From a virus, in the IMG/VR virus record IMGVR_UViG_3300044808_000089, positions 1 through 40,883 of that record: a DNA stretch of 40,883 bases; one strand, 5' to 3'. How positions within the stretch are numbered: the first letter of the stretch is position 1; each line of letters begins with the position of its first letter. The notes beneath the pieces were generated by a model, which was given only the letters and a program-made list of their open reading frames with translations, did not search any database and was not told the DNA's origin. Below are positions 12,141 to 40,654 of this stretch, in pieces. The translations under genes and the position numbers were made by a program.

Positions 12141-12275
12141 TTAGCATCTATGGAAGTCGTTCTTATTGTAGTCTCTACCGCAGTTATTGCAGTGGCGTTG
12201 GTTTGATTTCGGGTTCTGTTGTTGTCCGACTCTAACGGCTTTTCTGTAGGCTTTCCGTTGTGCTTCTGATTTCAT
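12141..12275 (-). CDS. Small zinc-ribbon protein, 44 aa
   Basis: Starts MKSEAQRKAYRKAVRVGQ, a basic helix, and ends with CNNCGRDYNKNDFHRC, a C-x2-C plus H-x-C site. The ATG overlaps the stop of the holin gene (TAATG), a coupling signal used repeatedly in this operon. Last gene of the late operon. Function unknown. Confidence 0.65.
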   Translation of the reverse strand: MKSEAQRKAYRKAVRVGQQQNPKSNQRHCNNCGRDYNKNDFHRC

Positions 12276-12556
12276 TACTTCTTTTTCCTAGCGGCTATTT
12301 TAGCTTCTTGGGTTTCTTCTATTTCTATTGGCTTCTCTGGTTCTACCCAGCGAATCCATTTATCAATAGCCATCAGCAAACCAACGACTACAGGGGTAAG
12401 CACATTGGTAAATAATTTGTTGCGGTCGAGCGGATTAGTCAGGTCGTAACCTTTATTTATTTCGAGCAAGAGAATCGGTACGACAACACCTAAAAAGGTG
12501 TAGATAAATCCTCTGGCGAATCGAACGGCGAGGACTTGAAACTTTGTTGGTTCCAT
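12275..12556 (-). CDS. Probable holin, 93 aa
   Basis: Two hydrophobic segments, residues about 14-30 (GFIYTFLGVVVPILLL) and 50-66 (VLTPVVVGLLMAID), separated by a polar loop, and a strongly charged C-terminal tail (EIEETQEAKIAARKKK). This is the layout of class II-like holins. It lies in the lysis region, right after the lysozyme gene. Holin identity is inferred from topology and context. Confidence 0.65.
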   Translation of the reverse strand: MEPTKFQVLAVRFARGFIYTFLGVVVPILLLEINKGYDLTNPLDRNKLFTNVLTPVVVGLLMAIDKWIRWVEPEKPIEIEETQEAKIAARKKK

Positions 12557-12696
12557 GTTGGTTGGTTAATGATTGTTAATTCCCATATCGAATGGTAAGG
12601 ATATTTTCCATAATGGAAAACGAATTGTTCTCCAGTTTTGAGGCTTGCCTTGCCGTTCTTTATGGCGATTAATTGATTGGGGTGATAGGTTGGCAT
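12490..12696 (-). CDS. Possible small protein, 68 aa, overlapping lysozyme and holin genes
   Basis: Starting at ATG 12696 (MPTYHPNQLIAIKNGKASLK), the frame fills the 110-bp gap between lysozyme and holin and then overlaps the holin start by 67 bp. The first 45 residues look protein-like (FVFHYGKYPYHSIWELT); the remainder, which overlaps the holin, is Ser/Pro-rich. It may be real with a dual-coding end, or only its first part is meaningful. Confidence 0.4.
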   Translation of the reverse strand: MPTYHPNQLIAIKNGKASLKTGEQFVFHYGKYPYHSIWELTIINQPTWNQQSFKSSPFDSPEDLSTPF

Positions 12697-13211
12697 TGTT
12701 TGGCTACCGTCCAAGGCTTAGCGTTTTTCCGACTCGCCATGTACTTAATAGCGGCTTTTATATTACTCTCTGCGTCGTAAACGGATAAACCAGCCTTTCC
12801 TTCATCAGTTGCTCGCCACGTTCCTGAGAGATACTGGAAGACACCTCTGGCAGAGCTTCGTTTGTTAGCCGAAAACTGGTTGTAACCGCTTTCTTTTTTG
12901 GCGATACATAGCGGAGCTTCGGCGGCGATTCCGTATTGCTGTGCGTATTGTTTAATAATTTCGACAACTTCTGCTGGGGTGTAATGCCGTCCACTATACT
13001 TGGCGATGTCTTGGGTTTTGGTTTTGGGTTTTGCTTTACTCGTTTTCCAGTAAATACTGGAAGGCTTGTACGGTCGTAAGTCTTTCCCAGATTGTAATAC
13101 TCGTCGTCCGTAACTTGTTTTGGCTTCCACCAATTTTTGATTTTGTTGATTAGTTTTCGCATAGGCGATTAGTGGAGCGATAATTCCTAATAGGATTATT
13201 ACTGCCCACAA
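12669..13211 (-). CDS. Membrane-anchored lytic transglycosylase / lysozyme (SLT fold)
   Basis: 180 residues from a TTG start (13211). Residues 1-17 are a hydrophobic anchor (WAVIILLGIIAPLIAYA), possibly a signal-anchor. A basic linker follows to about residue 85. The C-terminal domain has the SLT pattern: PLCIAKKESGYNQFSANK with the catalytic Glu, then ARGVFQYLSGTWRATDEG and IKAAIKYMASRKNAKPW. It would degrade peptidoglycan glycan strands at lysis. The same anchor-linker-SLT layout recurs in the frameshifted gene at 35963-36528. Confidence 0.85.
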   Translation of the reverse strand: MWAVIILLGIIAPLIAYAKTNQQNQKLVEAKTSYGRRVLQSGKDLRPYKPSSIYWKTSKAKPKTKTQDIAKYSGRHYTPAEVVEIIKQYAQQYGIAAEAPLCIAKKESGYNQFSANKRSSARGVFQYLSGTWRATDEGKAGLSVYDAESNIKAAIKYMASRKNAKPWTVAKQCQPITPIN

Positions 13212-13381
13212 AATAACTTTGAGGGTTTGCTTAGAATTTTGAAGTTCTATGGGAAACCTGCAAGCAGCCGACAGGCTTGTTTTTCACTCCTCCATCGTTA
13301 CGGCAAGTTTTTAAGGCTGTTAGTAATCTTTTACTTAATGATACGCTTATGAAATTTTTTGACAATCAAATCTGTGGATAA
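13212..13381. other. Intergenic region with a hairpin and a DnaA-box-like site
   Basis: No gene. On the plus strand CAAGC...GCTTG is followed by TTTTT, a possible rightward terminator (13261-13285). TGTGGATAA (13373-13381), the complement of TTATCCACA, lies directly after the stop of the 65-aa gene. On the minus strand TTGATT and TATCAT could be a weak promoter for the lysozyme gene. Confidence 0.45.
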
Positions 13382-13579
13382 CTATCTCCACGTCACAACT
13401 GGGGAGCCAAAGAAACCGAGTACCCAGCCGATTGCAATCAGCACAACAAATACCTTAAACAGCATGATTGCCACTAATGGCAAAGCCACTGAAGCAGCGA
13501 GTAATCCGATTAGCCAGAACGCTAATACGACAAGGATTGCCGCTACTACAAGGTTGATGAGTAGGTTTAATAAATTCAT
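13382..13579 (-). CDS. Small hydrophobic protein, 65 aa, holin-like
   Basis: Almost entirely hydrophobic: two transmembrane segments (LLINLVVAAILVVLAFWLIG and LVAIMLFKVFVVLIAIGW) joined by a short turn. The ribosome binding site is AAAGGAAAAC before the ATG. It lies between two peptidoglycan hydrolases, so it may be a second holin or a pinholin; it could also be an antiholin to the 93-aa protein. Confidence 0.6.
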   Translation of the reverse strand: MNLLNLLINLVVAAILVVLAFWLIGLLAASVALPLVAIMLFKVFVVLIAIGWVLGFFGSPVVTWR

Positions 13580-13591
13580 GTTTTCCTTTCT

Positions 13592-14497
13592 TTAATTAAT
13601 TGTTACTAAGGCGTTTTGTAATTTGCCGTAGTCAATGAGGGATAAAAGCGCTTTGTATTTCGGCGGGTCTTGGTAAAGCAGTTCATGCACTCGGTCGGGT
13701 TGTCCAGTGAGAAAGAACAGAGCGTGGCAGATTTCATGGAAAGCTCGTTCCTCGAAGACATTAGATTCGCTCTCAAGGGCTGTAACTTCGATTCTAACAG
13801 GTCTTTTTGGGTCTCCCCATGTCATATACCCCCAAGAATTGGTAGAAGGGTAATCTTTAGGGTTACAGAGAAACAGCGTTGCTTGTCCTTCAGCCATCGG
13901 GGTTACATTGTTTCGATACCAGTTTACGTCAATGCATTCAATCCCGTTAAAGCTGCCTTTGGGGATTTTTGTGAAGTTGGAATATTTAAATTTGAATACT
14001 GGCTCTAACTTTCCTAGAGAATGTTCAACAAACATCTTCTTTAAGTTATCGAGTCGAGGGGTTAGATTCCAGGTATTATTGTTGGCTATTACTGTGATAG
14101 CCATAAAGGTTTTTTGAAGCACAGGCGTTGGTGGGTTTCCCCAATTAATTTTCTCAGGGTCAACTAATAGATTGTTTTTATACGCTTCTTGGTGAAGGTG
14201 AGGGTTGGTCGTGTATCTGCCAGAGTTTCCTGTAATCGCTACAAGCTCTCCTTCTTTGACTATTCCGGTCTTGATAATTTTCGATAAATGGCGAGCGATG
14301 AACTTATGTCCGTCTGGAGTTTTTAATTGCCAGAATTTACCCCCTTCAACACCTTCACCGCTTGTTGCATACCCTGAAAACGGGGCGTAATAATTGACGT
14401 ATTCAGCTTGATAATCGGTTCCGTTATGGAAGCTGTTGTAGAAGGTTCTTTGCCCAAACAGGTATCCACCTATCTTTTTTGTACGTAATGGAAACAT
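13592..14497 (-). CDS. M23 (LytM) endopeptidase fused to an HExxH metallopeptidase-like domain
   Basis: 301 residues. The N-terminal 110 residues are an M23 peptidase: FHNGTDYQ gives H24 and D28, GHKFIARH gives H70, NPHLHQEA gives H100/H102, the zinc ligands and catalytic His. These enzymes cut peptide cross-links in peptidoglycan. After a Pro linker, residues 135-301 form a second domain with RAFHEICHALFF, an H-E-x-x-H zinc signature (254-258), and a downstream His/Asp-rich stretch. The pairing of two metallopeptidase types in one endolysin is uncommon. It has no signal peptide, so release would need the holins nearby. Confidence 0.82.
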   Translation of the reverse strand: MFPLRTKKIGGYLFGQRTFYNSFHNGTDYQAEYVNYYAPFSGYATSGEGVEGGKFWQLKTPDGHKFIARHLSKIIKTGIVKEGELVAITGNSGRYTTNPHLHQEAYKNNLLVDPEKINWGNPPTPVLQKTFMAITVIANNNTWNLTPRLDNLKKMFVEHSLGKLEPVFKFKYSNFTKIPKGSFNGIECIDVNWYRNNVTPMAEGQATLFLCNPKDYPSTNSWGYMTWGDPKRPVRIEVTALESESNVFEERAFHEICHALFFLTGQPDRVHELLYQDPPKYKALLSLIDYGKLQNALVTIN

Positions 14498-16108: not shown

Positions 16109-17877
16109 TAGAGTGCAAGGTTAAGTAATGAAGACGCGGCATAGTTAGTGCCGTTGTAATAAAGCGTAATGATGTCGGTCTGACCGTTGGTGGTAGTAAG
16201 TGTCGGAGCTGTCCCGCCTGACCATTTAACTGTTGATGGGAAAGTAACCGTTCCGGCTGCACCTGATGCTGGCTGTTTAAGCTCGATTAAATATCTGCCT
16301 CCAGATTGAGGGTTGGAGAAAGTCAGAGTATTCCCGCCGTTAGCAAGCGTGAGTGATTGCACATTGCCGTTGTTCCAGTTGATTGTGGTGGAAGCTGCAT
16401 AACGAGTCGAGGAATACTGGGAAACGGTCGTCATCGCTCCGCCTTGGGTAACACTGAATTTAGGATTACCTGAGCCGTCTTCGATGGAAAGACTGTTGCC
16501 TGTTCCAGCGTTTTTAATTCGGAGAGCTTTAGAAGTATCGGTAGCGTTCAGCATTTGAATATCTACAAGCTGAGTTCCGGCGTGAGCGTAAGTGGTATTG
16601 TTTTTGAACAGTCCTGCTGAGGCTGAACCATTACGGTTATCAACAGCGATAATTATTCCGTTATTAACAATGGTAGTCGAAGTGTAATTAACATCACTGG
16701 TTGTTCCAGGCTCAAAGTAGTTGCCGCTAACTTGCGTATAAGTCGAGCTTGATTCTTCAAGAGCGTAGGTGTAATAAGCACCGCCGATAACATTATTCCC
16801 CATGACAATATTGCGAGAACCGTTCAAGACTTTAATAGCTGGATTAGTTGTGTCTCCTCCAGCGACCTTCACGACGCGGTTGTTGGAGATAATAACGCCG
16901 CTTGCATCAGCATAAATGGCTTCTTCGTGAGGTCCATCGAAAACGTTTGAATCTACGATTCCTGACGAAATACCAGTCATGTGAATCATTTTGCCAGTGG
17001 TGGTACTGTTGAATCCGACGAAGCTATTATGGTGAATGTTATTTAGCCCGGAGTTGTCGTAAATAGCTGTGGTGGTGAAGTCAGAGAATATATTATTAGA
17101 AATAATATTCTCATCGTTGTACGTCATGTGAATACCGTAAGGAGTATTTGTATCGAAAATACAACGGTCAATCCAGTTGTTATAGCCTCTGATAGAAGCT
17201 GTTCCAGAAAGAGCAATTTGTTTATCCCGGCAATTAGTAATCCAAATACCAGTAAAAGTACAAACTGCTGCTGTTCCCGTAATACCACCACCAGCGGTCA
17301 AGTTATTAGTGCGATTACCGTCAATCTTAAAGTTTCTAAAAACATTGTATTTCCGAGAAGCTGCTGCATCCAGGGTAATTGCGTAGATGTTTGTTGAATC
17401 CTTAACCTTCAAAACACTGCTCCAGCCGCAACCCATCAGAGTGACATTATTGCCAGAGATAGTTAAAGTCGTACCGATAATATAAGTGCCAGTAGGGAAA
17501 AAAACTGTACCGCCGACTGCTTGAGCTGCGGTGATTGCGGATTGAATATTAGTTGAGTCATCGGTTGAGCCATCTCCAGTTGCTCCATACGCTTTGACGT
17601 TGAAAACCTGAGTCCCTTTATCTAAAAGAGTCCCAGCGTTGAAGATTTTGGCAGCGGTTACGGTCTGCGCTGTACCGAGATACATATCCCCGCCGCCTGC
17701 TGAAGAATTGATAGTAACATCGCCTGTTCCGGTATCAATTCCAGTTGAACCAAGCGTAATTCCTGAGCCAGCGACAATCCTACGGACTACAGCTTCACCA
17801 GTTGTGGAGACATCTAAATCAGAGCGTTGGACGCTCGTATCTTTTATTTGTCCGCCACGAATTTCTGTTTTAGCCAT
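16108..17877 (-). CDS. Tail spike with pectate-lyase-like beta-helix (probable depolymerase)
   Basis: 589 residues. N-terminal 90 residues are a fibre-like attachment part (GGQIKDTSVQRSDLDVST). Then NVKAYGATGDGSTDDSTNIQ, the hallmark entry motif of the pectate lyase superfamily, opens a right-handed beta-helix of about 330 residues with repeating short strands and Asn ladders (NRTNNLTAGG, NENIISNNIFSD, GLNNIHHNSFVG). The C-terminal 110 residues form a trimerisation-type beta domain. By analogy to podovirus spikes it would bind and cleave a surface polysaccharide. The catalytic residues cannot be identified from sequence alone. Confidence 0.85.
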   Translation of the reverse strand: MAKTEIRGGQIKDTSVQRSDLDVSTTGEAVVRRIVAGSGITLGSTGIDTGTGDVTINSSAGGGDMYLGTAQTVTAAKIFNAGTLLDKGTQVFNVKAYGATGDGSTDDSTNIQSAITAAQAVGGTVFFPTGTYIIGTTLTISGNNVTLMGCGWSSVLKVKDSTNIYAITLDAAASRKYNVFRNFKIDGNRTNNLTAGGGITGTAAVCTFTGIWITNCRDKQIALSGTASIRGYNNWIDRCIFDTNTPYGIHMTYNDENIISNNIFSDFTTTAIYDNSGLNNIHHNSFVGFNSTTTGKMIHMTGISSGIVDSNVFDGPHEEAIYADASGVIISNNRVVKVAGGDTTNPAIKVLNGSRNIVMGNNVIGGAYYTYALEESSSTYTQVSGNYFEPGTTSDVNYTSTTIVNNGIIIAVDNRNGSASAGLFKNNTTYAHAGTQLVDIQMLNATDTSKALRIKNAGTGNSLSIEDGSGNPKFSVTQGGAMTTVSQYSSTRYAASTTINWNNGNVQSLTLANGGNTLTFSNPQSGGRYLIELKQPASGAAGTVTFPSTVKWSGGTAPTLTTTNGQTDIITLYYNGTNYAASSLLNLAL

Positions 17878-34717: not shown

Positions 34718-34746
34718 TTTACAGTATTAGATATTTCGTATATTAT
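34718..34746 (+). promoter_or_regulatory. Promoter of the right rightward operon, with an upstream TTATCCACA box
   Basis: TTTACA (34718-34723), 17-bp spacer, TATTAT (34741-34746). A full DnaA-box-like TTATCCACA lies at 34700-34708. A small GCTC-AAAC-GAGC hairpin follows the start point. Confidence 0.7.
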
Positions 34747-34794: not shown

Positions 34795-34986
34795 ATGTAC
34801 CCACAACCAATCTTCACCGCCTACAAAGACGGCTCTCATATCCATCACCGACTATCTGGAGACGTTCGCTGTACCAAGAGCCATCCAAAACCCCTTCCAC
34901 TCTGGGCTAAGAACATTATCATCATTCAGTCCGGCATTATCTTCACCTTAATAACTCACTTAATCCTTAAATCAAATAATTTATAA
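34795..34986 (+). CDS. Small membrane protein, 63 aa
   Basis: One hydrophobic segment near the C-terminus (NIIIIQSGIIFTLITHLIL). The N-terminal 38 residues are polar and basic with several His and a Cys. No motif recognised. First gene of the right rightward operon, 50 nt after the promoter. Confidence 0.6.
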   Translation: MYPQPIFTAYKDGSHIHHRLSGDVRCTKSHPKPLPLWAKNIIIIQSGIIFTLITHLILKSNNL

Positions 34987-34990
34987 ATAT

Positions 34991-35215
34991 ATGTCTAACT
35001 GGAAAGAACAATTTGATAAAAAGTTTACTGTTAAACGAGTAGTTGGAAAGGAATTTGGGGATACTTTATTACACTGGAAATCAGAAGCTATTCAACACTT
35101 CATCTCCAAAGAAATCATAGAAAAGCTGATAGATGATATTCCAGAAAAAGGATATTTTGATGATTTACAAGAAATCCGAGAAGTTAAACAACAATTAAGA
35201 GATAAATGGTTATGA
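34991..35215 (+). CDS. Hypothetical protein, 74 aa
   Basis: Helical and charged (FISKEIIEKLIDDIPEKGYF, then DLQEIREVKQQLRDKWL). No motif recognised. Preceded by an AAATATATG leader without a Shine-Dalgarno site; ends in an ATGA overlap with the next gene. Confidence 0.65.
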   Translation: MSNWKEQFDKKFTVKRVVGKEFGDTLLHWKSEAIQHFISKEIIEKLIDDIPEKGYFDDLQEIREVKQQLRDKWL

Positions 35216-35364
35216 ACAAAGAAATTTGTAAATATTGCTCTGGCGACGGCTGCGAAAAATGCAATTACTACGGTATTATCCTCTGGCGAAACCGAGTAGA
35301 ACCTAAACAACTAAAATACAACAAGCCTCACGGCTCTTATCCAAAAGATAAAAGATTCGATTAA
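35212..35364 (+). CDS. Small DnaJ-type Cys-rich protein, 50 aa
   Basis: Starts MNKEICKYCSGDGCEKCNYY, with a C-x2-C-x-G-x-G-C-x2-C pattern like one DnaJ zinc repeat, followed by a basic tail (KQLKYNKPHGSYPKDKRFD). Probably a small zinc protein. ATGA-coupled to the gene before. Confidence 0.65.
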   Translation: MNKEICKYCSGDGCEKCNYYGIILWRNRVEPKQLKYNKPHGSYPKDKRFD

Positions 35365-35380
35365 CTAATTAAAATATATG
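35361..35380 (+). repeat. Translation-leader repeat, copy 1
   Basis: TTAACTAATTAAAATATATG, ending in the start codon of the 38-aa gene. It is repeated exactly at 35491-35510. No Shine-Dalgarno site. Confidence 0.8.
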
Positions 35381-35494
35381 ACCTGCAATATACCAATGTG
35401 CAATGAATCAGCGACTAAAAAATACAAAGGGATGAAAATATGTAAACAGCATTATGAGGATTATATGGACGAAGATTATATCTTTACTAATTAA
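35378..35494 (+). CDS. Very small zinc-finger-like protein, 38 aa
   Basis: Starts MTCNIPMCNESATKKYKG and has C-x3-C ... C-x2-H (MKICKQHYEDYM), enough for one treble-clef-like zinc site. It lies between two exact copies of a 20-bp translation leader. Function unknown. Confidence 0.55.
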   Translation: MTCNIPMCNESATKKYKGMKICKQHYEDYMDEDYIFTN

Positions 35495-35510
35495 CTAATT
35501 AAAATATATG
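35491..35510 (+). repeat. Translation-leader repeat, copy 2
   Basis: Exact 20-bp copy of the leader at 35361-35380, ending in the ATG of the 93-aa gene. Confidence 0.8.
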
Positions 35511-35789
35511 TCACACCCACAAAACGACAACTACGAAGAAACAATCTTCGAGTACAAACAAGAATCAGAAGCAATGAAAGCTGTCAACCGATTATCTTCA
35601 CACGAACGAAAGTTTAATGAGCTTAGTGAAATTACTGACTTGTTCGGAGACCTAACCAACGCCTTTGCAGGGAAAGGCATAGATTACCAACGAGAGTTCT
35701 CAGCCAACACCCGTACAGACTTATCTAAAACCATAATCTTAGATGAATTAAACTTCCAATTTGGAAGACCAGAATTAATTAATAGCTAA
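35508..35789 (+). CDS. Hypothetical protein, 93 aa
   Basis: Acidic/helical (NYEETIFEYKQESEAMKAVN, then FNELSEITDLFGDLTNAFAG). No membrane segment or Cys. Not recognised. Its start lies in a repeated AT-rich leader. Confidence 0.65.
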   Translation: MSHPQNDNYEETIFEYKQESEAMKAVNRLSSHERKFNELSEITDLFGDLTNAFAGKGIDYQREFSANTRTDLSKTIILDELNFQFGRPELINS

Positions 35790-35793
35790 CTAA

Positions 35794-35958
35794 ATGAACG
35801 AAATCACAAAAATAGACGCTTATACAAAAGACTTAAAGCGTATCGCAGACTTAACGTATGACGAATCAGGGAAGAAAAGCCGAAACAGACCTGACGTAAT
35901 CCATTTCCTTCTCAATTACTTCTACGATAACGAATTAAAAAATAAAACTAACAAATAA
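35794..35958 (+). CDS. Small hypothetical protein, 54 aa
   Basis: Starts MNEITKIDAYTKDLKRIADL and ends with basic KNKTNK. The segment RPDVIHFLLNYFYDNEL could be the second helix of a ribbon-helix-helix-like DNA-binding fold, but this is weak. Function unknown. Confidence 0.55.
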   Translation: MNEITKIDAYTKDLKRIADLTYDESGKKSRNRPDVIHFLLNYFYDNELKNKTNK

Positions 35959-35962
35959 CTAT

Positions 35963-36528
35963 ATGAACTCAATCAAAACAAAAATCAACGCCTTCATCAC
36001 TCACAGCGATAAAATCGCCTTCGCCCTATCCATTTCCTTATTACTGTTCTTCATCATCGGAACCACGATTCAAATCGTACAGTACACCAACCAGTACAGC
36101 GTAAAATTTCAGAACTTCATCAACATTGAACCAAAAGTACAACAGACATATCTCGTAAAAAAATAACGACCAAGGAGGATAAATCACTCTCTAAACCGCA
36201 ACAACGAAAGTCGGAATTAGAGCCGCAAACAGTAAAACCTACCTCAGACATTGAAAAGCTCATCTGCTCTTACAACTGGGACTGCAAAACAGCAATAGCA
36301 GTAGCTAAAGCTGAATCAGGACTCAGATGTAACGCAACCAATAAAAACACTAATCAATCCACAGACTCAGGACTCTTCCAGATAAACTCAATCCATAAAC
36401 AGAAATACCAAGATAAAAATATCTTCGACTGCAAAACTAATATCGAAATCGCCTACCAAATTTACCAAGCCCAAAATTGGACTCCCTGGGTAGCATTTAA
36501 AACAGGAGCATATAAACGACATCTCTAA
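35963..36528 (+). CDS. Membrane-anchored lysozyme made by -1 frameshift at A7 (188 aa)
   Basis: The zero frame (35963-36166) encodes 67 residues with one membrane segment (IAFALSISLLLFFIIGTTIQ) and stops at TAA just after GTA AAA AAA. The overlapping -1 frame runs from there to TAA at 36526 and encodes a 90-residue lysozyme/SLT-like domain: IAVAKAESGLRCNATNKN with the catalytic Glu, STDSGLFQINSIHKQK, and four Cys (CSYNWDC and others). This second frame has no ATG, GTG or TTG anywhere before the domain. A_AAA_AAA (36157-36163) is a textbook -1 slippery heptamer. A shift would give anchor-linker-lysozyme, 188 aa, the same layout and length as the 180-aa lysozyme at 12669-13211. An assembly error in the A-run is the main alternative. 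Confidence 0.7.
36157..36178 (+). promoter_or_regulatory. Slippery A7 site followed by AAGGAGG
   Basis: A_AAA_AAA in the zero frame, then the TAA stop and a strong Shine-Dalgarno-like AAGGAGG (36172-36178) with no start codon in the right frame at the right distance. The SD-like site may be a remnant or may pause ribosomes. Confidence 0.6.
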
Positions 36529-36534
36529 AACGAA

Positions 36535-36557
36535 AAGCCCTCATATCGAGGGTTTTT
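36535..36557 (+). terminator. Terminator of the right rightward operon
   Basis: CCCTC-ATATC-GAGGG followed by TTTTT, seven bases after the lysozyme stop. The A-run before it could also terminate leftward transcripts. Confidence 0.85.
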
Positions 36558-37583: not shown

Positions 37584-37655
37584 TTATAAACAAAGGGAAT
37601 TAAGCCTAAACGCAGGTTATAACACTTATAACATCCTTATAACACGCTTATAATA
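37584..37655. repeat. TTATAACA-type iterons
   Basis: TTATAAAC (37584), TTATAACA (37617), TTATAACA (37626), TTATAACA (37637) and TTATAATA (37648), with spacings of 33, 9, 11 and 11 bp, so mostly in helical phase. They cover the 3' end of the replication-relaxation gene. Iterons of this kind often bind a replication initiator or relaxosome protein. Confidence 0.6.
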
Positions 37656-38356
37656 TCAGGAATTGAGAGAATTTCATCTCTTGGACTAAATAAAACTCGT
37701 CCCATTGGGTTAGCGATTAAGGTCGGATGCTGAGCCAAAAGAAACTGGTCGTTACGCTTTTTTTGTTGTAAAAACTCGCCCATTTTCTTAGCTCGTTTGA
37801 CGACTCTTTGGTGTTCTCCGACAAAATCAAAGACAACATGGAACCTCTCTTTTGCCTCATTTCCATACACAATATAGTTCTCGACCTTATCTCGTAAGTC
37901 CTGAAAATTCTCGGTCACTCTGTCCACCTCAAAGTAAATCGTCAGCCCGCCTTCAAACTGCACACCCCTATCAGCTCTCTTCGAGAGAATAAACGGTTCG
38001 TGAATCCATCGTTTGGCGTAGAGGTTGTAAGCGACAAATAAATCTGCCCCCGCTTGCTCATGTCGAAACTTATCCGCAGATTTGAGCCGTGGCGTTGATG
38101 GAAGCATAAACATATCAGACAAGCCGAACCTACTAAGGTCGTGGACTTTGACTTCTTTGCGTTGCTCCATCCGGCGAAGCATATTATTGGCTGCCTGATA
38201 ACTGCTAGGATAAGTCTTTCCACTTATCAAAATTGTCTTTTTTGTTGGATATGCCAGCCTTGCGATTTGTTGCGCCGTCATTCTTGGTTCGATGCTTAGG
38301 AGGTTTAGAATGTCCTCCTTCCTCTCTTGGGGGGTGGGCTTTGAATTGCCTTGCAT
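37637..38356 (-). CDS. Replication-relaxation family protein (MobC-like), 239 aa
   Basis: N-terminal winged helix (EDILNLLSIEPRMTAQQIAR, then YQAANNMLRRMEQRKEVKV). The C-terminal part has the family's nuclease-like pattern: H-E-x2-G start (KFRHEQAGADLFVAYNLYA), WIHEPFIL, and GLTIYFEVDRVTENFQDLRD with the central acidic residue, then KVENYIVYG. Such proteins act in plasmid or ICE relaxosomes and at rolling-circle origins. The first 50 codons overlap the ATPase gene in another frame, yet the winged helix starts at codon 15, so the long overlap is likely real. Its 3' end contains iterons. Confidence 0.8.
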   Translation of the reverse strand: MQGNSKPTPQERKEDILNLLSIEPRMTAQQIARLAYPTKKTILISGKTYPSSYQAANNMLRRMEQRKEVKVHDLSRFGLSDMFMLPSTPRLKSADKFRHEQAGADLFVAYNLYAKRWIHEPFILSKRADRGVQFEGGLTIYFEVDRVTENFQDLRDKVENYIVYGNEAKERFHVVFDFVGEHQRVVKRAKKMGEFLQQKKRNDQFLLAQHPTLIANPMGRVLFSPRDEILSIPDIISVL

Positions 38357-39740
38357 TGATTTGTTGTTCTATTTGTTCTCTTATTAAATACCAAGGGTTG
38401 CTGCAAATGGATTTAATGTAATCGTTCACGGCTTCCTGAGAAATATTGACTTCCTTAACTTCGGGTACTTTAATTCTAACAGGTGTTTCCTTGTCCTTTT
38501 TGATGACCATGTACCGCTTGGGGATATTCTGATTAGCGTAAGAAGCAAGAGTTGGATGAATATCTCCGCCATATCCGAGGTCTTCGACCATCTCAAGTCG
38601 GTCTTTTGCGCTCGAAATATTGAACATCATCTTAATCCGGCAACCGTTTTTAATTGCGCTCAATACGTCTTGCTGTCCTTGCTCCCGAAACTGGTCGAAC
38701 TCGTGGTGAGCGATAATCAGCCGGAGTCCCATCTTCCTCATGTATTGAATGATGAATTTGATTTGGGGGCTGGCAAGGCGAGTAGCTTCGTCAATGTACA
38801 GATTAAAGACGTTCTTTATTTCGCCTTCAGGGTGCGAATGAAACAACACGCTTACTCCGTGAATGATTTCGGAGATAATAAAAATGCCAAGCAGTCGAGC
38901 TGGTGTTGTTAATAGGGTTTTACTCGGGGATAAGTTGACGAGAATAACCCAGCCCTCACGAACCATTTTGACAAAATCAATTCCGGTATCGGCTGCGGTC
39001 ATCAGTGAAATCGGCTCCTGACGGAACGTATCAATCCTGCCGACTGTCGTTATAAAGTAGTTTTCAAAGTGATTTGGCGACCGGAAACTATCCTTAACGA
39101 TTAGCGAGTCTTCATCGTCTTCAAGAAACGGCAACAAATCGGCTGGTTGCCATCGCATAAAATATCTAGCCTCGTTAATCGTTAATCCTTTTTTTGCAAG
39201 AACATTTAAAAGTGCCGAAAAATTACGCCTGATTCTGTTGGTATCGGTTTGTCTGTGGACGCCGAACAAAGCATTTACCGACTCCAACACGGAATCAACC
39301 GATTGATTTGTGTACGGAGCCGGTTTTAGGAGCTTTAGCGTCGGTATTTTATTAAGTCTGAGGTTTACATCGGGGTCAATGTAAATCACCTTCTCATAGC
39401 CAATTTTGGCGCAATAGCGAAGAATTGCCTTTGCCGTGTCGCCGTTATCCGAAGGGTCGAGTAAACACAATCCGTTGCCTAGGTCTATATCCTGCCGGAT
39501 TTGGTGTTCAAGAAGCTTGGATTTACCCTGCCCAGGCTGACCTATGATGTGCATGTTTGCGCTTCGTTCTTCTTCGGTGATGACGAGTTCTTCCTCACCA
39601 ACACCGACTGTCCGAAGCGGATATTGGCTGGAGTGTTGTTTGATTGACTTCTTTTCTATCTCCTCGAAACTGGGAATCCGCGTGAACTCGTCAAACGATT
39701 CATCGGGATTCACCAATTTCCAAGGGTCAAAGTCTGCCAT
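38205..39740 (-). CDS. VirD4/TraG-like coupling ATPase, soluble form, 511 aa
   Basis: Walker A is GQPGQGKSKLLE near residue 70; Walker B is NVFNLYIDEATRLASPQI near 310, with the conserved Glu; downstream MRKMGLRLIIAHHEFDQFRE resembles the Q/H motif III of the family. There is no N-terminal membrane anchor, unlike classical VirD4, so a soluble or partner-anchored form is likely. The C-terminus is basic and disordered (HPPREEGGHSKPPKHRTKND), perhaps for DNA. It would deliver relaxosome DNA to a secretion channel or act as a pump. The genes on both sides support a mobilisation module. Confidence 0.85.
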   Translation of the reverse strand: MADFDPWKLVNPDESFDEFTRIPSFEEIEKKSIKQHSSQYPLRTVGVGEEELVITEEERSANMHIIGQPGQGKSKLLEHQIRQDIDLGNGLCLLDPSDNGDTAKAILRYCAKIGYEKVIYIDPDVNLRLNKIPTLKLLKPAPYTNQSVDSVLESVNALFGVHRQTDTNRIRRNFSALLNVLAKKGLTINEARYFMRWQPADLLPFLEDDEDSLIVKDSFRSPNHFENYFITTVGRIDTFRQEPISLMTAADTGIDFVKMVREGWVILVNLSPSKTLLTTPARLLGIFIISEIIHGVSVLFHSHPEGEIKNVFNLYIDEATRLASPQIKFIIQYMRKMGLRLIIAHHEFDQFREQGQQDVLSAIKNGCRIKMMFNISSAKDRLEMVEDLGYGGDIHPTLASYANQNIPKRYMVIKKDKETPVRIKVPEVKEVNISQEAVNDYIKSICSNPWYLIREQIEQQINARQFKAHPPREEGGHSKPPKHRTKNDGATNRKAGISNKKDNFDKWKDLS

Positions 39741-40654
39741 TATTTTAAAGCGCCTAAAAGTCCTCGTCCCTGCTCGTCTCTGAATTGCTTAAAGAAGGTG
39801 ACAATAGCCTCCCTATCTTCAACCATTCTGCGTTTGGTTTCAGGCGAGAATTTTGAACGATGGATTTCCTCAATCTGTTCATAAATACCGTCCAGTAATC
39901 CCTGCACGAGTATTATTTTTTGATGCGTGGTTAATGTTTTAGCGATAAGAGCAAGCCGTAGCCGCTCGTTCATCTCGGTAATCTTGTTATTAAGCGTAAT
40001 CGTTTCTTTTTCCTTGAACTCTGACAGCCGGATATGTGACAGAGCCTGTTCAAGGTCAAGCTGTGCCTGTACGTCAAAAAGTTTTACTCTGAGTTGTTGC
40101 GTCGTTGCCGCTGCTTCTTCCTGTATTTTTAAGGATGAAGCGTTTTGGCTCTCACGAACTCGGAGCCGTGATTCGTTTTGTGCTAGTCGTTTGGTTTCGA
40201 GTCCTGCGACCGACAATCCTTGGCGTGTGGCTTGCTCCAGTAAATGAGCCTTCTGTTTTAATTCGTATAAAACGAATGAGTTGTGAACAATCCACGACAA
40301 GAATTCGACGTATTTCTTATCACTATTAACAGCCGCGTCTTCAAGCATCGCGCCTTGCTCGATAACAGCGACCATTGAAGGCGTAATAAAACTTAGTGTT
40401 TGTTGGTGTCCTTGTAGTTTCCACGTCTTTAGCCAACTGCGAAGCCGTCCTGAATCTGGGTCGAAAAATTCCTGTAATTGTTTTGCTTGATTAATTACTA
40501 ACTGCTGGCGGGGGTCTGGGGCGTCTTGATAATCGTCGTAACTAGGAGCGTATTTCTTCTTGATGCGCCTACCGACCTCCTCATCGGTTAGGTCGCTATA
40601 TTGACCTGGGTACTTCTTTTTAATGAGCTGCCCTAGCTCTTTAATCGTTTTCAT
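39740..40654 (-). CDS. Coiled-coil protein with KYPGQY-type N-terminal repeats, 304 aa
   Basis: The first 40 residues hold two units of a short repeat (IKKKYPGQYSDLTDEEVGRR and IKKKYAPSYDDY), a motif known from many phage and bacterial proteins of unclear role. Residues about 130-240 are a long coiled coil (LEQATRQGLSVAGLETKRLA, then QEEAAATTQQLRVKLFDVQA). The end is basic and helical. It overlaps the ATPase by one base and the upstream gene by 14, so it belongs to the same operon, maybe as a scaffold for the ATPase. Confidence 0.65.
   Translation of the reverse strand: MKTIKELGQLIKKKYPGQYSDLTDEEVGRRIKKKYAPSYDDYQDAPDPRQQLVINQAKQLQEFFDPDSGRLRSWLKTWKLQGHQQTLSFITPSMVAVIEQGAMLEDAAVNSDKKYVEFLSWIVHNSFVLYELKQKAHLLEQATRQGLSVAGLETKRLAQNESRLRVRESQNASSLKIQEEAAATTQQLRVKLFDVQAQLDLEQALSHIRLSEFKEKETITLNNKITEMNERLRLALIAKTLTTHQKIILVQGLLDGIYEQIEEIHRSKFSPETKRRMVEDREAIVTFFKQFRDEQGRGLLGALK

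Follow-up and report, generated by a model that had tools for sequence, protein, structure and literature searches.

A membrane anchor and a lysozyme in two frames

The window, by which we mean the whole stretch of DNA that was analysed, comprises the 40,883 bases of a virus record, has 42% G+C and carries tailed-phage genes for a terminase, tail fibres, a peptidase and an integrase. A small operon on its plus strand (34795-36528) closes with a lysozyme gene. Upstream of this operon is a promoter-like site (TTTACA-17-TATTAT; 34718-34746, plus strand), which is weak and of a kind that is no commoner in the window than expected by chance. The operon end is marked by a terminator-like hairpin, CCCTC-ATATC-GAGGG followed by TTTTT (36538-36557, plus strand; also listed on the opposite strand). 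Further along, on the minus strand, the region 37637-40654 holds genes that resemble a conjugative coupling protein (weak similarity to TraD), together with neighbouring genes.

At this gene, a membrane anchor and a lysozyme domain lie in two overlapping reading frames. The first, read directly from the sequence, is an open reading frame of 67 amino acids (35963-36166, plus strand) that begins with ATG at 35963 and ends with TAA at 36164-36166. An earlier note on this DNA described an upstream frame that supplies a membrane segment and ends GTA AAA AAA TAA, and direct reading and hydropathy agree with that description. There is a single strong transmembrane (TM) segment (Kyte-Doolittle 2.44), predicted at residues 18-36 (36014-36070, plus strand). 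Because the N-terminal tail is net positive, this anchor would be expected to lie with its N terminus inside and its C terminus outside.

The second frame runs from stop to stop at 36130-36528 (plus strand), lies at -1 relative to the anchor and overlaps it by 37 nt. None of its 132 codons is ATG, GTG or TTG, so the earlier claims of a start-less lysozyme and of a -1 offset between the frames both stand. The slippery heptamer A_AAA_AAA (36157-36163, plus strand), an A-run of exactly seven, is in register with the anchor frame and abuts its TAA stop. A -1 slip there would add 121 residues comprising the linker and the lysozyme domain (36163-36525, plus strand) to the 67 of the anchor, giving a predicted fusion of 188 amino acids, the length originally proposed. 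By chance, as gauged by shuffling codons, the window's overlap would contain a canonical in-frame heptamer about 8% of the time. Immediately 3' of the slip site in the window there is no significant stem-loop (z about 0; 23% of local windows are equally stable), and a search for longer-range structure in stretches of 70-120 nt after the site gave nothing beyond chance. A hairpin is usual at -1 sites but not essential, and its absence lowers certainty for the window.

Two other routes to the lysozyme frame were considered and rejected. An alternative genetic code would not join the two frames, as they are separated by a -1 offset and not merely by a stop. A Shine-Dalgarno-like AAGGAGG at 36172-36178 is followed by no usable in-frame codon, and this motif occurs six times in the window against 4.8 expected, a chance frequency. 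The Shine-Dalgarno core is found at just 4 of the 38 gene starts of this phage; many of these starts show TTAAC- or ATTAA-like leaders instead.

The enzyme encoded by the second frame looks intact rather than decayed, given a fold model that resembles c-type lysozymes and the presence of both expected catalytic residues. The open reading frame matches Pfam SLT_3 (PF18896; E 1.7e-15), with a weaker match to C-type lysozyme. The model of the domain has a pLDDT of 91.8, and its top Foldseek matches, every one a c-type lysozyme, have a probability of 1.00 although their E values are 1.7e-3 or worse; a profile search against solved structures also returns c-type lysozymes, with E values down to 8e-12. 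The catalytic Glu codon (36313-36315, plus strand), in an AESG motif, is invariant in all alignments. An Asp codon (36364-36366, plus strand) follows 17 residues further on, within NxNTxxSTDxGxxQIN; Glu35 and Asp52 of hen lysozyme are spaced in the same way.

Elsewhere in the window, three minus-strand genes (12275-14497) probably form a conventional late lysis cassette: a small membrane protein (12275-12556), a TM-SLT protein (12669-13211) and an M23-type peptidase (13592-14497). The earlier note saw the predicted fusion as a copy of the design at 12669-13211. The likeness holds for the layout of TM segment, linker and glycosidase; it does not extend to close homology, as the cassette protein matches Pfam SLT (E 2.9e-8) and the frameshift lysozyme SLT_3.

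Phage loci with the same frame break

Searches of viral contigs with single sequences from the window (the lysozyme, the anchor and the slip-site DNA) found no close copies. Profile searches were therefore needed, and relatives were reached by searches that started from a match to a TM7 phage and from profiles. At least 20 further non-identical phage loci share the plan of the window (21 in all), that is, a short single-TM open reading frame that overlaps, by 10-172 nt, a lysozyme frame without a TM segment (L051, L055-L059, L097, L105, L106, L111, L114, L116-L119, L126, L128, L133, L140 and L181). These loci were picked by the missing anchor in the lysozyme frame and not by the direction of the shift. 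In all 21 the lysozyme lies at -1 relative to the anchor, and in none at +1. About 13 of the 21 have no start codon upstream of the catalytic domain, and the window and L128 have none anywhere in the lysozyme frame.

The frame break of the window thus recurs in 20 further loci, including those of two phages (L128 and L133) whose terminase is of the window's type (about 41% identity). In both of these, and in an uninterrupted relative whose terminase also resembles that of the window (L123, 36%), the lysozyme gene lies about 2-2.5 kb upstream of the terminase. The window's own lysozyme gene is 2.6 kb upstream of the terminase, which is on the opposite strand. Another of the loci (L051) belongs to the complete TM7 (Saccharibacteria) phage DolZOral124_53_65 (MG269973), in which CQ476_31, an annotated CDS, corresponds to the anchor half, whereas no annotated CDS takes in the catalytic domain.

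A tblastn search of the 43 closest terminase relatives of the window found a lysozyme relative in none of them. Among 25 whole records, four have an SLT-domain protein and one (L045) has a weak match. We set this last locus aside (1180-1854), as its anchor and lysozyme share a frame with one TGA between them, a different kind of break; its position in the protein matches that of the frameshift, and the second half could start from a TTG at 1528. The search of the genome collection yielded a single find, a phage-like contig binned as Prevotella (JAFTFC010000001; L111/L112). The frameshift lysozyme locus occurs twice on this 71-kb contig, 40,113 bases apart, probably because the assembly runs round a phage genome more than one time.

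Slippery codons are concentrated where the frames overlap. In 20 loci the overlap contains A_AAR in frame, meaning AAA or AAG preceded by a codon whose last base is A, against 7.4 expected when the anchor codons are shuffled; in 11 it contains a canonical X_XXY_YYZ heptamer, against 1.6. These counts come from 21 related loci and so are not independent trials. The heptamers are A_AAA_AAA in the window and L056, A_AAA_AAC in L051, A_AAA_AAG in L106, T_TTA_AAA in L055 and L058, and G_GGA_AAA in L097, L105, L111, L117 and L118; one locus (L181) has no slippery codons. The same relatedness applies to the RNA structures that follow. In 18 of the 21 loci the downstream 45-nt hairpin ranks in the top 5% for stability within the 550 nt around it (14 of 16 when the test was made on a 16-locus set). 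A group of nine rumen sequences shares a 10-bp helix in which 94% of cells are paired, compared with 31-51% when the helix is slid, and its covariation score of 0.328 exceeds that of 499 of 500 shuffles (0.186 +/- 0.042). Between L128 and L133, 2 of 90 nucleotides differ after the slip site compared with 35 of 156 in the anchor, as would be expected if an RNA signal were conserved there.

This comparison of loci supports programmed -1 frameshifting in the family. The central claim of the earlier note, that a -1 shift where the anchor ends gives access to the lysozyme, gains support from the frames, slippery codons and hairpins of the relatives.

Uninterrupted relatives and competing explanations

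In at least nine relatives, the TM segment, linker and lysozyme form one open reading frame (L061-L063, L069, L086, L123, L124, L130 and L132), and one of these, L086, carries the motif GDxxLTxxxNGRxYGxSxGxxQ that is common to the frameshift group. These sequences show the anchor-lysozyme fusion to be a genuine protein design. Relatives with an ordinary start, which the earlier note took as evidence against the frameshift, thus exist as several continuous frames, yet in these the enzyme is joined to a TM segment, which favours the fusion.

On the lysozyme tree, the nearest neighbours of the window by path (L121, L122 and L061) are all uninterrupted, and the frameshift state requires at least three changes. 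The window therefore does not owe its break to descent within a well-supported frameshift clade. In L121 a single open reading frame (1495-2820) links an N-terminal domain that looks to be of a phage replication type to a TM segment and to this lysozyme domain, and L122 has a frame that is similar in length and layout. Other arrangements occur among the relatives. TM-lysozyme genes lie directly 3' of a small membrane-protein gene in L075 (2764-3258) and L084 (2806-3258); neither has a standard start before the TM segment, and an ATA over the TAA in L075 and an ATT in L084 look like starts. In L053 (865-930) and L109 (2650-2715), conservation reaches 5' of the first ATG and takes in the ten codons that immediately follow the stop (QLRPIHIKRN); in L109 no standard start precedes the TM segment.

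We consider it probable that the locus is a two-product gene that makes an anchor and, by a -1 slip, a tethered anchor-lysozyme fusion. Most ribosomes would translate the 67-residue membrane anchor and terminate at TAA, and a minority would slip back one base at A_AAA_AAA, bypass the stop and make the 188-residue fusion. The N-terminal TM segment would carry the c-type-lysozyme-like muramidase over the membrane and tether it toward the peptidoglycan, which a tethered enzyme should face given the positive N-terminal tail and the strongly hydrophobic TM segment. The shift would hold a potentially lethal enzyme scarce and at a fixed proportion to the anchor, and the anchor itself may pair with or restrain the enzyme. 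We infer the shifting in cells, the topology, the product ratio and the biological role. That the window's own break is programmed is, in our judgement, likely, and we rate -1 frameshifting at the level of the family higher.

The same two products could arise at a different step. If RNA polymerase inserted an additional A in the run of seven, a subset of mRNAs with eight would encode the fusion, a variant of the two-product gene that concerns the window only. Runs of seven A can slip in this way, and the window has such a run without a hairpin. Counter to this, most relatives have runs of four to six A, or T_TTA_AAA or G_GGA_AAA, together with a hairpin, a combination that is a better fit to ribosomes. 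We thus regard transcriptional slippage as unlikely, although it may yet apply to the window taken by itself, where its product from the A-run could be the same.

Somewhat less likely again is the possibility that the break is an artefact or a product of decay, in which one A was lost, by a read error or a fresh mutation, from a continuous anchor-lysozyme frame. A single-base loss from a homopolymer would look identical to a programmed break, the nearest relatives on the tree are continuous, and the contig has nine A or T runs of exactly seven and none of eight. Other runs of seven, however, lie inside long intact genes (for example at 17498, 20114, 31900 and 39189), so runs of this length seem to be correctly read. 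Arguing further against a chance loss, the heptamer is exactly in register against the stop and identical to the site in L056, the enzyme is otherwise intact, and the same break occurs in at least two other lineages.

Least probable of the three, and improbable in our view, is stop-start coupling, in which re-initiation at an AUA overlapping the stop (AUAA or AUAG) would give a soluble lysozyme to be released by a holin-like upstream protein. The window and many relatives do have ATA, overlapping the stop, as the codon after the slip; the related start-less lysozymes with their own TM segment (L075, with ATA, and L084, with ATT) probably use such starts; and an ATG overlaps the stop in L056, with a GTG a few bases further in L055 and L057. 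Eight loci nevertheless lack ATA over the stop (L055, L058, L105, L106, L126, L128, L140 and L181), seven of which have slippery codons, while a soluble product would need no excess of A_AAR, the one-frame relatives physically join the TM segment to the enzyme, and both the scarcity of Shine-Dalgarno cores in the window and the chance frequency of the AAGGAGG at 36172 speak against re-initiation.

Possible role and relation to known systems

Distant phages have retained the frame break, and it seems to have had more than one origin, even though uninterrupted versions exist. This pattern suggests that selection holds anchor and enzyme at a fixed ratio. A broader reading, which we offer tentatively and hold at somewhat less than even, is that recurrent, independently gained -1 frameshifting in phages, some of them phages of Saccharibacteria, rations a tethered lysozyme, with the anchor acting as a holin or inhibitor, so that control of lysis is set by the ribosome. 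The more specific idea of a lysis timer, raised in the earlier note, is somewhat weakened, because the frameshift gene lies outside the probable late lysis cassette. In four relatives (L051, L055, L117 and L128) a strong promoter-like TTGACA is found directly upstream of the anchor, and the anchor-lysozyme gene is thus probably expressed on its own in these phages.

If the broader reading is true, it is the ribosome that would control lysis, and neither dual starts nor antiholin genes of their own. This raises the question of whether the ratio of anchor to enzyme sets the time of lysis or protects the cell early in infection, and cultivated Saccharibacteria could bring that question within reach. 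There is also a consequence for annotation, as gene callers split such genes or miss the enzyme half, as in the TM7 phage MG269973.

Frameshifting by -1 in phage tail genes is classic. The tail-assembly chaperones (gpG/gpGT), insertion-sequence and dnaX systems likewise have a slippery heptamer in an overlap, a -1 shift and products in a set ratio, and their 3' hairpin is shared by the relatives of the window locus. The difference lies in the gene, which here encodes a membrane-anchored cell-wall hydrolase in place of a tail, replication or transposition function. In the coat-lysis overlap of MS2, synthesis of the lysis protein is likewise tied to a change of frame; there, termination and re-initiation produce a separate small lysis protein and not a fusion enzyme.

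SAR endolysins (P21 R21, P1 Lyz and HP1 Lys) resemble the predicted fusion: in them an uncleaved N-terminal TM segment precedes a muramidase that is exported by its anchor, as that of the fusion would be. They differ in carrying anchor and enzyme in one frame, whereas the window has them in different frames, and in having a weakly hydrophobic TM segment that leaves the membrane, compared with the strongly hydrophobic one of the window (2.44). The SAR-like features of the window, a TM segment and a positive N-terminal tail, are found with the enzyme only in the predicted fusion product.

A further comparison is the lysin of Lactococcus phage phi-vML3, for which a pair of overlapping genes is reported (Shearman 1994; described in PMC3111421 and cited in PMC10885494). 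There, one gene region is likewise reported to yield a lysin resembling lysozyme together with a holin-like protein of smaller size, and PRFect, citing Shearman 1994, counts lysins among the genes in which a frameshift is known. Our search of the open literature on endolysin and lysozyme frameshifting, lysis genes and phages of Saccharibacteria and Patescibacteria found no membrane-anchored lysozyme made by frameshift. The proposed mechanism is a known one and, by this search, the class of gene is new to it, and membrane-anchored cell-wall hydrolases would join the short list of phage genes in which -1 frameshifting is conserved.
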